Shown: positions 6,787-62,655 of the stretch, in pieces | Layout of the letters: every line of letters begins with the position of its first letter | How positions within the stretch are numbered: position 1 is the first letter of the stretch | Position numbers and translations under genes: made by a program | Notes under the pieces: generated by a model | What the model saw: only the letters and a program-made list of their open reading frames with translations | The model's database searches: none | What the model was told of the DNA's origin: nothing | DNA from: Actinomycetota bacterium | Lineage (GTDB): Bacteria; Actinomycetota; Acidimicrobiia; Acidimicrobiales; Iamiaceae | Length of the DNA: 64,000 bases | Direction: 5' to 3' | NCBI GenBank assembly: GCA_019639075.1 | Contig: JAHBSO010000013.1 | Coordinates: forward strand, 1 to 64,000

Positions 6787-7398
6787 GTGCCCGCACCGCC
6801 CAAGGTCCGTCCCGCGACCCGTGACGACCTGCCCGAGATCGGGAAGGCGCTGGCCGGCGCGTTCGCCGACGACCCGGTCTGGCGGTGGATGGCCCCGGAC
6901 TCGCGCCGCTGGCTCGACCTCGCGGCCCGGTGGTTCGCCGCCGAGGTGGGCCATCAGCTCGACGGCCACGGCCTCGTGTGGGTCGACGAGGACGTGATGG
7001 GAGTGGCCGTGTGGGTCGAACCGGACCGCTGGCGGTCGACCGCGGGCGAGACGCTGCGGATGGCCGTGCCGTCGATGCGCTTCCTGCGCAGCGGCCTGCT
7101 CCGCGGCCTGCGCGTCGTGTCGGCGCTGGAGAAGGCCCATCCGCACGAGGAGCACTGGTACCTGTCGCTGCTCGGCACCCACCCGGCGGCCCAGGGCCGC
7201 GGGGTGGGCAGCGCACTCCTCGCGCCGCTGCTCGAACGAGCCGACGCCGAAGGGATGCCCGCGTACCTGGAGTCGTCGAAGAAGGCCAACCTCGCCTTCT
7301 ACGGACGACACGGCTTCGTCACCAGCGGCGACCCGATCCGGCCCGGCGACGGCCCCCCGCTCTTCCCCATGTGGCGAGCGCCGAGGACCCCGGGGTGA
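6787..7398 (+). CDS. GNAT family N-acetyltransferase
   Basis: A 203-residue protein with the GNAT fold. The acetyl-CoA binding motif A is visible as LLGTHPAAQGRGVGSALL (about residues 127-144), followed by the motif B region with AYLESSKKANLAFYGRHGF. It transfers an acetyl group from acetyl-CoA to an unknown amine. The GTG start follows a TAGGGT box by 7 nt. The stop overlaps the start of the downstream AAA ATPase gene (GTGA at 7395-7398), so the two are translationally coupled. The substrate is not predictable. Confidence 0.88.
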   Translation: MPAPPKVRPATRDDLPEIGKALAGAFADDPVWRWMAPDSRRWLDLAARWFAAEVGHQLDGHGLVWVDEDVMGVAVWVEPDRWRSTAGETLRMAVPSMRFLRSGLLRGLRVVSALEKAHPHEEHWYLSLLGTHPAAQGRGVGSALLAPLLERADAEGMPAYLESSKKANLAFYGRHGFVTSGDPIRPGDGPPLFPMWRAPRTPG

Positions 7399-8921: not shown

Positions 8922-9820
8922 AGCGGGTCCTCGCGATCGCCGGCGCCGCCGCGCTGGTCGCCGTGGCCCTGGTCGTGCGGGGCGTGCTGGCCGGCGACGA
9001 CGACGGATCGAGCGGCGCCGGCGGCGCCCGGCCCGTGGTCGCCTGCAGCCCCGGCCTCGAACCGATCTGCGACGCGCTGGCCGACGCAGGGTTCGTCGAC
9101 CCCGGGACCGAGTCCTTCGACCTGGGATCGACGGCGTCCACCACCGGATTCGTGGACGACCGCCGCGTCGACGCGTGGATCACCTGGGACCCCGCCGGCC
9201 CGATGGCCAACTTCGACGTCGCCTCCGGCGAGCCCGTCTGGGCCGGGGCCGAGGCCGTCGGCTCCTCACCGGTCGCCCTGGCGGCGAAGCAGCCCCTCGA
9301 CGGTGAGGGCTGCGCCGCCCCCATGTCGTGGACGTGCGTGGTCAGCAGCGTCGAGGGCGGTGCGTCGGTTGCCGTCGGCCGCATCGGCACGATCGACGGG
9401 GTGGTGCGCCTCGCGCCGATCGCGGTCTCGACCCTCTCGGACGACGAGACCGTCCAGGACCTCGACGTGTCCCTCGTGCGGTCGGTCGCCGAGAGCAGCA
9501 CCCAGGCCCCGGACGACTTCGCCGCCGAGCTCCGGACCTTCGAGGTCAGGGCCGGCGCGTACGACGTCATCGTCGGACCGGCGTCCGGGTTGGACGGAGT
9601 CGTCGGCGCGACCCTCACCACACCGACCGGCGACTTCGCGATGACGCTCGTGGTCACACCGCGGGTCGGTGCGTCGACCAGATGGATCGCCGACGCGTTC
9701 GACGCCGAGGCCGTGCAGGAGGCCGTTCGTGCCGCGGGCGTGGAGCCCGGAACGGGCACACTGGCCGACGAGCAACGTGCCGGTGAGCTGTACGCCCTCC
9801 GACAGGAGATCACCCGATGA
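8918..9820 (+). CDS. Membrane-anchored extracytoplasmic protein, binding-protein-like
   Basis: A 300-residue protein with an N-terminal hydrophobic helix (about residues 4-25) followed by DDDGSS and a soluble domain. The domain has the general look of a periplasmic-binding fold (VVACSPGLEPICDALADAGF near the N-terminus, WITWDPAGP, VVTPRVGAS), but I cannot assign it to a family with certainty. It overlaps both neighbours by 4 bp: the AAA ATPase gene upstream and the SBP-VWA gene downstream. This tight coupling suggests the three products work together at the membrane. Function unknown. Confidence 0.75.
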   Translation: MKRVLAIAGAAALVAVALVVRGVLAGDDDGSSGAGGARPVVACSPGLEPICDALADAGFVDPGTESFDLGSTASTTGFVDDRRVDAWITWDPAGPMANFDVASGEPVWAGAEAVGSSPVALAAKQPLDGEGCAAPMSWTCVVSSVEGGASVAVGRIGTIDGVVRLAPIAVSTLSDDETVQDLDVSLVRSVAESSTQAPDDFAAELRTFEVRAGAYDVIVGPASGLDGVVGATLTTPTGDFAMTLVVTPRVGASTRWIADAFDAEAVQEAVRAAGVEPGTGTLADEQRAGELYALRQEITR

Positions 9821-58731: not shown

Positions 58732-59331
58732 ATGTCCCCCACCGCAGGCATCGTGCTCGCCGGCGCGCTCCTGCTCCTCGTCGCAGGCATGGCGAAGGTG
58801 GCGAGGCCGGCCGCGACGCAGGTGGCGCTGCGCACCGCCGGTCTCCCGTCGAGCCGCCCGATCGTCCGGCTCCTCGGCACGGCCGAGGTGGTCACCGCGG
58901 CCGTCACGTTCGTGGTGGCCGGCACGCTCGGCACCGCGCTCGTCGCCCTCTTCTACGTCGGGTTCGCGTCGTTCAGCGCGCTGCTCCTGCGCCGCAGCCG
59001 CGGGCGGGCGTCGTGCGGCTGCTTCGGCGGCGACGACGCTCCCGTGACCAAGGTCCACGTCTGGCTCAACCTCGCCATCGCCGCCGCGGCGCTGATCGCC
59101 CTCGCCGACCCACCCCCGTCGATCGGCGAGGCCCTGCGGGAGACCCCGGCCGCCGGCCTCCCGTTCGTCGCGCTCGTGCTGGTGCTGGCCTGGCTGCTCC
59201 TCGTGGCCTTCACCGTGCTGCCCGCGACGCAGGCCGCCGCACGCCCGGCACCGGCCGGCACCGACGCCGCCGGCGGCGCGACCGGCGGGCAGGGGCTCGC
59301 CATCACCCCGAAGCCGGGAGCGTCGGCGTGA
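58732..59331 (+). CDS. MauE-like membrane protein (disulfide-pathway type)
   Basis: 199 residues with about four membrane helices. The vicinal pair C95-x-C97 lies in SCGCFGG after the third helix, a common feature of MauE/DoxX-type membrane oxidoreductases. In methylamine dehydrogenase (MADH) clusters MauE and MauD are needed to form the many disulfides of the light chain. Here the gene is followed by a thioredoxin-like protein and a cysteine-rich Tat substrate, which argues for the same role. Its stop overlaps the next gene by 4 bp. Confidence 0.8.
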   Translation: MSPTAGIVLAGALLLLVAGMAKVARPAATQVALRTAGLPSSRPIVRLLGTAEVVTAAVTFVVAGTLGTALVALFYVGFASFSALLLRRSRGRASCGCFGGDDAPVTKVHVWLNLAIAAAALIALADPPPSIGEALRETPAAGLPFVALVLVLAWLLLVAFTVLPATQAAARPAPAGTDAAGGATGGQGLAITPKPGASA

Positions 59332-60170
59332 CCGCGCTGGTGGTCGCCCTCACCGCGGTGGTCGCCGTGCTCGGTCTGCTCGTCGTCGGCCTGCTGCGCA
59401 GCCACGCCGAGATCCTCAAGCGCCTCCACGACCTCGGTGCGGGCATCGATGCCGACGGCACCCCGTCGACGCCGCCCGCCCAGGCCGCGACACCGGCCGA
59501 CGGTCCCCGTCCGGGCCGCGACTTCCAGGTCATGCCGCAGGTCCCGTCGCCGCCGGAGCGCGAAGGGTTCGGTGGCGCGGCCGACCTCGCCGGGGTGGGA
59601 CCGGGGACGGGCGAGACGGTCACCCTGCGGGTCACCGGCGTCGAGCACGACACGATCGTCGCCTTCCTCTCCTCGGGCTGCGTCACCTGCCAGCGGTTCT
59701 GGGACGCCTTCCGCAAGCCCCGCAAGCTCGGCCTCCCCGGCGGGACTCGCCTCGTGGTCGTCACCAAGGGACCCGAGGGCGAGAGCGAGTCCGCCGTCGC
59801 CTCGGTCGCGCCGCCGGGGATCACCACGATCATGTCGTCGCAGGCGTTCCTCGACTACGACGTCCCCGGCTCCCCCTACTTCGTCCAGGTGCACGGCCCG
59901 AGCGGTCGGGTGCGCGGCGAGGGCACCGGTCCGGACTGGGACCAGGTCCGCTCCCTCCTGTCGCAGGCCGGCGACGACGCCGAGCTCGCCGGGCGCCTCG
60001 CCGGGTCCAACGTGCCGAAGCCCGACGCCGACGCCGAGCGCGAGGCCCGGATCGACCGGGAGCTGTTCGAGGCCGGCGTCGCGCCCGGCGACCCCAGCCT
60101 CTACTCGGCGGACGACGCGGCCTCCGGCGCCGACGCCGACGACCGCCCCGAGCGAACGAACCCCCGGTGA
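59328..60170 (+). CDS. Membrane-anchored thioredoxin-like protein (MauD-like)
   Basis: 280 residues from GTG 59328. A signal anchor spans about residues 1-22. After a Pro-rich linker the thioredoxin fold contains the active site C118-V-T-C121 (FLSSGCVTCQRFW) and a cis-Pro loop (VPGSPYFVQVH). The C-terminal 50 residues are acidic and may be disordered. It would exchange disulfides outside the membrane, with the MauE-like protein as electron partner, on the cysteine-rich protein encoded two genes later. Confidence 0.83.
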   Translation: MTALVVALTAVVAVLGLLVVGLLRSHAEILKRLHDLGAGIDADGTPSTPPAQAATPADGPRPGRDFQVMPQVPSPPEREGFGGAADLAGVGPGTGETVTLRVTGVEHDTIVAFLSSGCVTCQRFWDAFRKPRKLGLPGGTRLVVVTKGPEGESESAVASVAPPGITTIMSSQAFLDYDVPGSPYFVQVHGPSGRVRGEGTGPDWDQVRSLLSQAGDDAELAGRLAGSNVPKPDADAEREARIDRELFEAGVAPGDPSLYSADDAASGADADDRPERTNPR

Positions 60171-60231
60171 GACGGGTCGTTCGGGCCGACGCTCCCTCCG
60201 ATCCTCCCCGTTCCGCGATGATGGACGTGCC

Positions 60232-60783
60232 ATGAAGCTCGAATCACACGGCATCCAGACCAACCTCCCCCCCGGTTGGGAAGGCCGGATCACCGTCCGG
60301 CGCAAGCCCGAGGCGGTACCCGGCGACGACGGCGGGGCGGCTCCGTCCGCGAGGGTCTTCTCCCCCGAGCACCACGTGTCGGCCGGTGGCGTCACCGCGA
60401 TCGGCGACGCAACCGAGCAGATCCTCCCGGTCGTGCACCTCGGCAACTTCCCGCTCCCGGGCGACCGGGGCGACTTCGGGTCGGGGGCGGTCGACGTCAT
60501 GACCGACCTCGACGTGCTGCTCGTGCTCGCCGAGTACGGCCCGGAGTGCGCCGGGACGGCGCTGTTCAGCCACCAGGGCATCCCGACCCGGCTCACGCCG
60601 AACATGTTCTCGGCGTCCGCGCTGCAGCGGACGCTGCCCGGTCAGGCCGGGTGCCAGGTCTGGTTCACCGCCGAGGACCGCGCGTTCTGCCTCTACGCCG
60701 TGCTCGGCCGCCAGTCCAACGCCCGCCGCGTCCTCCCCGCCGCCGTCGAGACCCTCGCCGACACCAGGATCCAGCCCCGATGA
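60232..60783 (+). CDS. Conserved-looking protein of unknown function in the MauE/MauD-like cluster
   Basis: 183 residues, no signal peptide or membrane helix. The fold looks mixed (LPVVHLGNFPLPGDRGDFGS, TDLDVLLVLAEYGPECAGTA, GCQVWFTAEDRAFCLYAVLG), with only three cysteines. I do not recognise the family. The 61-bp gap before it and the 4-bp overlap with the LGFP gene (ATGA at 60780-60783) place it in the operon. It may act as a cytosolic partner, for example a Tat chaperone for the next product, which is inference. Confidence 0.75.
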   Translation: MKLESHGIQTNLPPGWEGRITVRRKPEAVPGDDGGAAPSARVFSPEHHVSAGGVTAIGDATEQILPVVHLGNFPLPGDRGDFGSGAVDVMTDLDVLLVLAEYGPECAGTALFSHQGIPTRLTPNMFSASALQRTLPGQAGCQVWFTAEDRAFCLYAVLGRQSNARRVLPAAVETLADTRIQPR

Positions 60784-62441
60784 CCCTCGCGCTCCGCCCC
60801 CGCCGCACGACCGCCACCGACGGAGCATCCGACCTCTCCCCCGTCGGCGTGCACCGCGACCCGACCAACCACGACCCCATCGCCGCGGGTGGCTTCGCCC
60901 AGCGCCTCGTGCACCGGATCTCGGCCGCCCTCAACCGCAGCACCCCGAACCGGCGCTCGTTCCTCACCCGCACCGCGGTCGTCGGCTCGGCGCTCGCCGT
61001 CGGTCCGCTCGACTTCATCCTCAAGCCGGGCACCGCATACGGCTACCTGTGCGGCACCTGCAGCGACGGCTGGACCGCCTTCTGCTGCACGATCAACAGC
61101 GGCCGCAACTCGTGCCCGGCCGGCAGCTTCGTCGCCGGGTGGTGGAAGGCCGACAACGCCGCCTACTGCTGCGGCTCGGCCCGCTACATCATCGACTGCA
61201 ACGCCACCTGCCCCACGCAGTGCTCGTGTCGGTGCGCCGGCGATTCCTGCGACGGCCGCCGCACCTGCTGCAACCAGTTCCGCTACGGCCAGTGCCACAC
61301 CGAGATCGCCTGCTACGGCCCGGTGGTCTGCCGGGTCGCCACCTGCGTCGTCCCCTGGCAGTACGACCCCACCTGCACCACCACCAGCCGCACCGACAAC
61401 CGCACGGTCGACCACGGCGCCCCCTGTCTCGGCCAGGACTGCGACACGCCGATCCAACGCAAGTACCTGTCCCTCGGCGGGCCGAGCAGCTACCTCGGCA
61501 GCCAGACCTCCGCCGAACGGGCCGTGCGAGGCAGCCGGCCGGGGCGCGTGGCCCGCTACGAGCGCGGGTCGATCTACTGGAGCTCGGCCACCGGAGCCCA
61601 CCCGCTGTGGGGGCGGCTGCTCACCAAGTTCGACGCCGCGGGCGGCATCGGCGGCACCCTCGGCTACCCGAAGACCGACATCCTGACCACGCCCGACGAG
61701 CGGGCGAAGTACACGATCTTCCAGTACGGCCGGGTGTACTCGATGCAGGAGGAGGCCACGGCGTACCTCCTCACCAACGCGTTCGCCTCGAAGCACCAGC
61801 AGGCCGGCGGCGTGCGGGGCGCGATGGGCTATCCGATCTCCGACGCCCGGCCGATCAACACCGCGCGGGGTGGGACCGTGCAGACCTTCGAGCGGGGCCG
61901 GATCTACCAGGTCGGCTCGTCGATCCGTCAGACCCACGGATCGCTCTACGACTGCCACCAGGCCAACGGTGGCGTCGGTGGCGTGTTCGGCTACCCGTCC
62001 AGCGACGTCAAGAGCTCCTACGCCGGCGGTCGGGTGCAGTACTTCGAGCGGGGCATCATCTGGTCGTTCCCGCCCGAGGACATCCCCGGGCAGGGCCTGC
62101 ACGGTGTCACGCTCTTCCGGTTCGTCTACAACGGCGGCGTCGACCCCCGCCCCGGCTACTACGGCCTCGGCTACCCCACGCAGGGCACGACCCCGGTGGG
62201 CGACGGCCGCGGCACCTACGCCGTCTTCCAGCGAGGACACATCTACGGCACCGACGCCCTCGGTGCGTTCCAGGTTCATGGCGGCGTGCTCGACCTCTAC
62301 CTGAGCCTCGGTGGCCCGACCGGCGACCTCGGTTACCCGACGAGCGAGCTCGACCCGCCGTCGGCGAGCGGGATCCGCAGCCAGCAGTTCGAGCACGGCC
62401 GCATCGACCGCCTGGCCGACGGCACCATCGTCCGCGCCTGA
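60780..62441 (+). CDS. Tat-exported protein: MADH light-chain-like 22-Cys domain plus LGFP repeats
   Basis: 553 residues. A Tat signal with the twin arginines at 58-59 (NRRSFLTRTAVVGSALAVGP) precedes a 22-cysteine domain at about 89-222. Its start, CGTCSDGWTAFCCTINSGRN, and NSCPAGSFVAGWWKADN resemble the methylamine dehydrogenase (MADH) light chain, including its CPPGT-type turn. About six LGFP-type repeats follow (about 228-553), for example GGIGGTLGYPKTD...IFQYGRVY and GGVRGAMGYPISD...TFERGRIY. LGFP repeats bind cell-wall polysaccharide. The product should be folded and oxidised with help from the two upstream oxidoreductase-like proteins, then tethered to the wall. Function unknown. Confidence 0.88.
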   Translation: MTLALRPRRTTATDGASDLSPVGVHRDPTNHDPIAAGGFAQRLVHRISAALNRSTPNRRSFLTRTAVVGSALAVGPLDFILKPGTAYGYLCGTCSDGWTAFCCTINSGRNSCPAGSFVAGWWKADNAAYCCGSARYIIDCNATCPTQCSCRCAGDSCDGRRTCCNQFRYGQCHTEIACYGPVVCRVATCVVPWQYDPTCTTTSRTDNRTVDHGAPCLGQDCDTPIQRKYLSLGGPSSYLGSQTSAERAVRGSRPGRVARYERGSIYWSSATGAHPLWGRLLTKFDAAGGIGGTLGYPKTDILTTPDERAKYTIFQYGRVYSMQEEATAYLLTNAFASKHQQAGGVRGAMGYPISDARPINTARGGTVQTFERGRIYQVGSSIRQTHGSLYDCHQANGGVGGVFGYPSSDVKSSYAGGRVQYFERGIIWSFPPEDIPGQGLHGVTLFRFVYNGGVDPRPGYYGLGYPTQGTTPVGDGRGTYAVFQRGHIYGTDALGAFQVHGGVLDLYLSLGGPTGDLGYPTSELDPPSASGIRSQQFEHGRIDRLADGTIVRA

Positions 62442-62580: not shown

Positions 62581-62655
62581 GCGGGTGTAGCTCAATGGCT
62601 AGAGCTTCAGCCTTCCAAGCTGAAGATGCGGGTTCGATTCCCGTCACCCGCTCCA
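62581..62655 (+). tRNA. tRNA-Gly(TCC)
   Basis: The acceptor stem GCGGGTG/CACCCGC pairs fully, the anticodon stem TCAGC/GCTGA closes loop CTTCCAA with anticodon TCC, and the T-arm GCGGG/CCCGT has loop TTCGATT. The 3' CCA (62653-62655) is encoded, with discriminator T as usual for tRNA-Gly. Length is 75 nt including CCA. Confidence 0.97.

Follow-up and report, generated by a model that had tools for sequence, protein, structure and literature searches.

A mau-derived module predicted to support oxidative folding of a cysteine-rich, wall-anchored protein in Actinomycetota

Judged from sequence, four adjacent genes in the window (the whole 64,000-nucleotide stretch of Iamiaceae DNA analyzed here) are best read as four parts of a module that derives from mau and serves the oxidative folding of a protein anchored to the wall. 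Together with MauF, which is encoded by a fifth gene in relatives, their products probably constitute a five-part extracytoplasmic thiol-disulfide module made up of MauF, a MauE homologue, a MauD-like protein, a PsbP/Mog1-like helper and a client. Many actinobacteria use such a gene set, related to the disulfide helpers of methylamine dehydrogenase, apparently to fold an exported wall protein packed with cysteines. All four genes were verified on the plus strand at 58732-62441 (Table 1) and form one conserved module. The initial annotation had described them as coupled; there are 4-base overlaps between genes 1 and 2 and between genes 3 and 4, and the MauD-like gene starts with GTG. Elsewhere in the window, an RF01852 match at 62581-62651 proved to be an ordinary tRNA-Gly, not a tRNA-Sec.

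Table 1. Features of the module locus in the window
Feature	Position	Strand	Basis
MauE homologue, integral membrane, 199 aa	58732..59331	+	Pfam PF07291, invariant C95-x-C97
MauD-like thioredoxin-fold protein, N-terminal membrane anchor, 280 aa	59328..60170	+	Family profile, C118-V-T-C121
183-aa protein, PsbP/Mog1-like fold predicted	60232..60783	+	AlphaFold model, co-occurrence
Tat-exported client, 553 aa: 22-Cys head domain, then six LGFP repeats	60780..62441	+	
Tat signal region, RRSFL..., residues 58-87 of client	60951..61040	+	TIGR01409, invariant RR
22-Cys head domain, client residues 88-225	61041..61454	+	Family alignment A1
Wall-anchor region of six LGFP repeats	61455..62438	+	PF08310

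The earlier designations of the first two gene products, as a MauE-like membrane protein and an anchored thioredoxin-like protein, both held. The gene 1 product matches the Pfam MauE family with 60.9 bits (cut-off 27), and its only two cysteines, C95 and C97, are invariant along with K22 and E52 across 27 sequences that include Paracoccus MauE, with which the CGCF motif is shared. The MauE homology of gene 1 can be regarded as solid. The gene 2 product likewise contains only the two cysteines of its C118-V-T-C121 motif, both of which are invariant in 31 sequences. No direct Pfam or NCBIfam match was obtained for it, and the NCBIfam MauD model itself misses this protein; comparison of its family profile with P. 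denitrificans MauD by hhalign gave 96.8% probability (E 2e-10), which makes for a good case that it is a MauD homologue.

As anticipated, the gene 4 product carries a Tat signal, with NCBIfam TIGR01409 scoring above cut-off and an RR pair at residues 58-59 that is invariant in the 53 sequences of alignment A1. The protein had been described as having 22 cysteines, a count that stands for the head (residues 91-221) but not for the whole chain, which has 23 owing to C392 in the LGFP part. The head also contains CC and CxC motifs and the invariant motifs GWW, RY..DC and FRYG.C. Across 90 homologues, the variable head cysteines are gained and lost in pairs, which supports the presence of disulfides in the head even though paired loss partly reflects shared ancestry of the homologues. 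Covariation pairs C63-C176, C108-C123, C54-C112, C91-C181 and C104-C138 (A1 numbering; adding 40 gives the number in the window protein). A UGA codon within the head protein was suggested at some genome matches, and none was located inside the head domain by HMM. The LGFP part, for which about six repeats had been proposed, comprises six stretches (PF08310, 149.4 bits) and is matched by the PS1 LGFP structures 6swz and 6sx4 (phmmer E 1.6e-25). Across homologues, LGFP, CWB2, SLH and other anchors swap behind one constant head type. This exchange, absent from the initial annotation, reveals that surface proteins in which an unchanging head is tied to the wall by interchangeable anchors form a widespread class.

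The 183-residue gene 3 product is a strict companion of the head protein, being encoded in all 44 genomes with the head, while 18 genomes without the head yielded one marginal match (E 7e-4). Its AlphaFold model (pLDDT 89.4) is predicted to adopt a PsbP/Mog1-like fold, a feature not previously noted, with VIA Z scores of 6.7 for Tsi3, 6.0 for LpqN and 5.3 for PsbP; the best Foldseek E value was only 0.02.

With respect to co-occurrence, a test set beforehand, all four families were found together, and in the same orientation, at every relative locus whose flanks were long enough to judge, which is more than chance would give; the module extends over several classes of Actinomycetota in differing gene orders. 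MauF is present in 43 of the 44 genomes with the head and absent from 17 of the 18 without it. The exception, G014, has MauE, MauD-like and UGA-containing MauF genes flanking another Cys-rich protein with Tat export. The genome to which the window belongs, 79% complete, yielded no MauF, so that the fifth part for this organism rests on four genomes of the same genus, all of which carry an unlinked MauF with Cys. The neighbours of these unlinked copies, read in two genomes, offered no shared lead.

The MauF component and its predicted selenocysteine in relatives are further features that had not been remarked upon. The fifth gene matches P. denitrificans MauF with 80 bits and contains an invariant WSP[C/U]GxS motif, the codon for whose conserved Cys is UGA in most relatives. 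Each such gene has one UGA, always at this Cys (about 50 loci), and UAA or UAG never occurs there. The coding sequence upstream of the UGA is conserved and aligns with Cys homologues. A tRNA-Sec was found in 30/30 genomes with UGA-MauF as opposed to 1/12 with Cys-MauF, an association that partly reflects shared ancestry, and SelB scored above cut-off in 25/30 as opposed to 0/12. Downstream of the UGA lies a SECIS-like hairpin, and the seventh codon after it is the Ser codon AGC in 39/39 cases, whereas at other positions of these genes AGC accounts for 22% of the Ser codons. A second hairpin agrees with the bSECIS model in the literature, its GGUC or GGG loop lying 29-33 nt from the UGA. The UGA could instead be a true stop followed by a Met start, or encode another residue, and the public annotation of Thermomicrobium roseum does begin the CDS downstream, at 9756, with the UGA at 9744-9746; the conserved upstream coding, exclusive use of UGA, SECIS-like codon constraint and association with tRNA-Sec and SelB make this reading very improbable. 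MauF of most relatives, as distinct from the window's organism, is therefore highly likely to be a selenoprotein, and a new bacterial selenoprotein family in Actinomycetota is predicted. The 119 families of a 2026 selenoprotein inventory do not include MauF (PMC13188914). We found no publication joining MauF with selenoprotein and selenocysteine, and papers naming MauF were nearly all unrelated.

Turning to the head, its proposed likeness to the methylamine dehydrogenase (MADH) light chain found weak support. The AF2 model (pLDDT 70.7) gives low VIA Z scores (2.3-2.7), and MADH/AADH light chains account for 10 of the 11 matches listed; the Tat-type signal, dense cysteines and a CPPG...W...DC pattern are also shared. 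Conversely, PF02975 matched neither the client nor its 53 homologues and exceeded cut-off in 0/396 genomes of the phylum, Foldseek returned no match for the model, and searches of Pfam, NCBIfam and PDB sequences, the last also by profile, produced no MADH match. A profile match of the head to MauA (95%) was rejected as standalone evidence, as removal of the Tat segment left scores of 19-21 against a shuffled-decoy maximum of 18-20. Kinship with the light chain is thus plausible but weakly supported. One could propose that the head is a true light-chain homologue acting as a surface redox enzyme with a modified-tryptophan cofactor, given that all 90 heads keep the Trp and Asp aligned to W57 and D76, and equally invariant are the charged and aromatic residues R95, Y96, R128, Y129 and R145. 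The same alignment, itself weak, places mostly A, S, P or R at the position of the second TTQ tryptophan, W108, and the head has 22 cysteines rather than 12. The absence of a heavy chain, already claimed for this locus, extends to PF06433 in 0/23 genomes (the positive-control plasmid scores 702 bits), and neither amicyanin nor MauG was read at the locus. With no heavy chain and just one of the two Trp residues of TTQ, the head is not a TTQ amine dehydrogenase, and we consider the cofactor proposal improbable. Equally slim is the chance of a bolder combination, in which MauF would represent a new membrane selenoprotein family driving extracellular disulfide chemistry and the client a surface redox enzyme whose W57-equivalent Trp is modified without MauG or heavy chain.

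The many head cysteines, with their CC and CxC motifs, could also suit a metal store or sensor whose thiols are kept reduced for loading by the redox genes, and a CcdA-like use of MauF would indeed send electrons outwards. This seems doubtful in view of the pairwise gain and loss of variable cysteines, the extracytoplasmic location, the ties of mau relatives to disulfides and the lack of any metal-binding family match in Pfam or NCBIfam. Somewhat less remote, though still unlikely, is that the MauE/MauD-like pair handles disulfides in general and just happens to adjoin the client, without dedication to it: G014 has a similar set with another client, but the four genes stay together across several classes and gene orders.

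Taken together, the Mau-type system, the Cys-rich wall client and the paired cysteines favor the earlier proposal of a repurposed MauE/MauD system that folds a wall protein, while its light-chain component is weak. In the favored oxidative-folding model, the PsbP/Mog1-like protein, which lacks an evident signal peptide, would most likely escort the client in the cytosol. The client would be exported by Tat. The anchored CxxC thioredoxin would then exchange disulfides with the head, where about 11 would form, while MauE, through its CxC, and MauF would pass electrons through the membrane so as to hold the thioredoxin in the right state. The redox residue of MauF would be its one conserved Cys, or Sec, close to the first membrane helix, marked as such by the replacement of Cys with Sec. 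The C-terminal anchor would keep the head on the wall. We infer which way electrons flow, how specific the set is for this client and each of the biochemical steps; at the sequence level, a module for oxidation looks the same as one for isomerization or reduction.

In terms of known systems, CcdA has an SPC-type redox residue near its first membrane helix, as does MauF. Relative to the CcdA/DsbD family, MauF conserves a single Cys/Sec and matches no Pfam or NCBIfam model. The rhodanese/DsbD-like selenoprotein TsoB also places Sec in a membrane thiol carrier (PMC13188914). Candidate RiPP clusters found in Streptomyces by decRiPPter resemble the module in having mauE/mauD homologues but no other mau genes, and in their adjoining Cys-rich products. 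Those products, however, are predicted to be short precursors, not wall proteins exported by Tat, and MauF is not mentioned in the available text of that report (PMC7794033). The T. roseum plasmid locus TRD_RS14725 to TRD_RS11410 shares MauE, a thioredoxin-like protein, UGA-MauF (WSPUGYS) and Cys-rich MauA-like proteins; its MauE, unlike that of the module, carries a propeller-like fusion, and its MauA-like protein, unlike the head, passes PF02975 (36 bits), keeps both Trp residues and has no wall anchor. The P. denitrificans mau cluster (mauF-B-E-D-A-C-J-G) has in common MauE, MauD-like and, in relatives, MauF proteins adjoining a Cys-rich protein with an RR signal, whereas the module has an extra PsbP/Mog1-like gene, a wall-anchored client and, in most relatives, UGA within MauF. 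For P. denitrificans, PMC7794033 treats a role of MauE in disulfide formation as speculative and calls the part played by MauD unclear. The retention of MauF, MauE and MauD-like proteins together without an amine dehydrogenase separates their job from TTQ formation, which bears on this open point in methylamine biochemistry; that job is most likely the handling of disulfides in a Tat-exported, Cys-rich protein.

All four open frames of the module were found where the initial annotation had placed them. At two of their junctions there is a four-base overlap between stop and start, as operon genes often show. By reading, clpX, clpP and tig lie upstream on the opposite strand, and a tRNA-Gly gene lies downstream. 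This tRNA-Gly (TCC; 62581-62655, just 3′ of the module) also gave a spurious tRNA-Sec match of 50 bits, above the Rfam cut-off. The 22 cysteines attributed to the gene 4 protein do fall within residues 91-221 (hereafter the head), although the total for the protein is 23.

Genes of the module in the window
Feature	Position	Strand	Description
MauE-like, gene 1	58732-59331	+	Open frame; passes Pfam MauE
Thioredoxin-like, gene 2	59328-60170	+	Open frame, GTG start
183-aa protein, gene 3	60232-60783	+	Open frame
Tat-Cys-LGFP protein, gene 4	60780-62441	+	Open frame; Tat signal, six LGFP stretches (Pfam)

Taken as they stand, with kinship not corrected for, our genome and locus counts show a widespread set. 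Within the same order, residues 1-224 of the gene 4 protein had matches in 79 of 298 genomes; scanning genomes yielded 33 head loci, from MAGs whose labels include Acidimicrobiia/Acidimicrobiales, Frankiales and Solirubrobacterales, and the head profile was positive in 31 of 396 genomes across the phylum. When profiles of all four genes were run over every locus, the four occurred together on one strand wherever the flank was long enough, in varying orders (E-T-U-head, T-U-E-head, E-head-T-U and others; E, MauE-like; T, thioredoxin-like; U, 183-aa). The 183-aa protein was present in 44/44 head-bearing genomes, with one marginal match (E 7e-4) among 18 head-less genomes.

The four-gene set initially proposed was real but incomplete, as a fifth component, MauF, had been overlooked. 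At thirty-odd loci an extra gene lies mostly between the thioredoxin and 183-aa genes; its profile matches Paracoccus denitrificans MauF at 80 bits, and no Pfam or NCBIfam model matches it. The motif W-S-P-[Cys]-G-x-S is invariant in the alignment (STWSPCGYS in Paracoccus). MauF occurs in 43 of 44 head-bearing genomes, the sole exception being the window's own (79% complete), where it was not found; in seven same-family relatives, four of the same genus, it is Cys-coded and unlinked to the module. At locus L063 (1976-3130) the MauF frame seems partly duplicated, possibly an assembly fault. Profile comparison relates the thioredoxin-like family to P. denitrificans MauD (96.8%, E 2e-10), although the window protein itself matches no Pfam or NCBIfam model.

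With respect to the client, variable cysteines are gained and lost pairwise among 90 heads: 63-176 (phi 1.0), 108-123 (0.87), 54-112 (0.86), 91-181 (0.78) and 104-138 (0.68), in alignment numbering (+40 for the protein). As judged from sequence, this is the behavior predicted for disulfides, not that predicted for metal clusters. Heads of one type carry exchangeable C-terminal parts (LGFP, CWB2, SLH, FG-GAP-like, RCC1-like, unassigned repeats), and some have none; fusions to surface modules other than LGFP were seen at L043-L045, L049, L107, L117, L120 and L124. In genome G014 (L142, 6228-9273), MauE, MauD-like and UGA-MauF genes flank a different Tat-exported protein, whose Cys-rich head looks unrelated and whose C-terminal repeats are CWB2-like by eye and have no Pfam match. 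A second Cys-rich client for such a redox set speaks more for the handling of disulfides than for the building of a cofactor.

The likeness of the head to the methylamine dehydrogenase (MADH) light chain, also claimed initially, is plausible but has weak support. In a VIA second look at the head model, 10 of the 11 chains listed were MADH or AADH light chains, with Z only 2.3-2.7. Against this, light-chain family searches, phylum genomes included, gave no family match above cut-off, Foldseek with the AF2 model (pLDDT 70.7) found none, and the profile comparison with MauA, at 95% when the signal region was included, dropped to a score of 19-21 once that region was removed, a little over the maxima (18.3 and 19.7) reached by 120 decoys. 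Since MauF, MauE and MauD adjoin, we nonetheless consider common descent likely, if well short of certain. If the alignment is valid, all heads keep W57 and D76 but W108 has been lost, so that TTQ could not form in the head. The MADH light chain contains six disulfides (PMC7876137). The heavy chain, correctly reported as lacking, was absent from 23 genomes by a search whose positive control worked. On the Thermomicrobium roseum plasmid NC_011961.1 (L065), two MauA-like proteins (1717-2169 and about 6885-7320; one unannotated) retain two Trp potentially able to form TTQ; their genes adjoin one for a MauE that is joined to a propeller-like part, PF06433 found no heavy chain on the plasmid, and the set is possibly a divergent MADH-like enzyme.

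The 183-aa protein, confidently modeled (pLDDT 89), looks like a PsbP/Mog1-like sandwich from its structural matches (Tsi3, Z 6.7; LpqN, 6.0; PsbP, 5.3); by reading it has no signal peptide, and it may escort the client in the cytosol as a chaperone. MauE and MauF would shuttle electrons between membrane and thioredoxin, which would form or correct client disulfides, the net flow being oxidising or isomerising. What the sequences show directly is homology, co-occurrence, paired cysteines, wall anchors and, as a prediction in relatives, selenocysteine. For P. denitrificans, PMC7794033 likewise calls the disulfide role speculation.

Four of the five module parts are seen in the window organism, and the selenocysteine evidence comes from its relatives. 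At about 50 loci, MauF has UGA in place of the Cys codon; this is the gene's only in-frame stop, never another stop codon, and conserved sequence precedes it. T. roseum, from another phylum, shares it (WSPUGYS; L065, 9744-9746); the annotated CDS there (TRD_RS11410, 9756-10349) begins just past the UGA, and the first membrane helix is thus missing from the public annotation. Among 42 genomes with a readable site (30 UGA, 12 Cys), strong tRNA-Sec (56-80 bits) was found in 30/30 UGA-MauF versus 1/12 Cys-MauF genomes (Fisher p 3e-9, kinship not corrected for), and SelB above cut-off in 25/30 versus 0/12. Genome G287, with tRNA-Sec, SelB near cut-off and two Cys-coded MauF copies, is perhaps a lineage caught after Sec-to-Cys replacement. 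Past the UGA, codon 7 is Ser AGC and codon 10 Pro CCG in 39/39 genes (versus 22% of Ser codons elsewhere in the same genes, and 54%, respectively). An intact 6-bp hairpin is present in 31/39 UGA-MauF versus 0/8 Cys-MauF genes, a contrast limited to eight Cys genes. A review of 119 selenoprotein families does not list MauF (PMC13188914). Compared with the bacterial SECIS model published there, the first hairpin places its loop slightly too close to the UGA (14 nt), whereas a second predicted hairpin 3′ of the UGA (loop GGUC or GGG, 29-33 nt away) fits.
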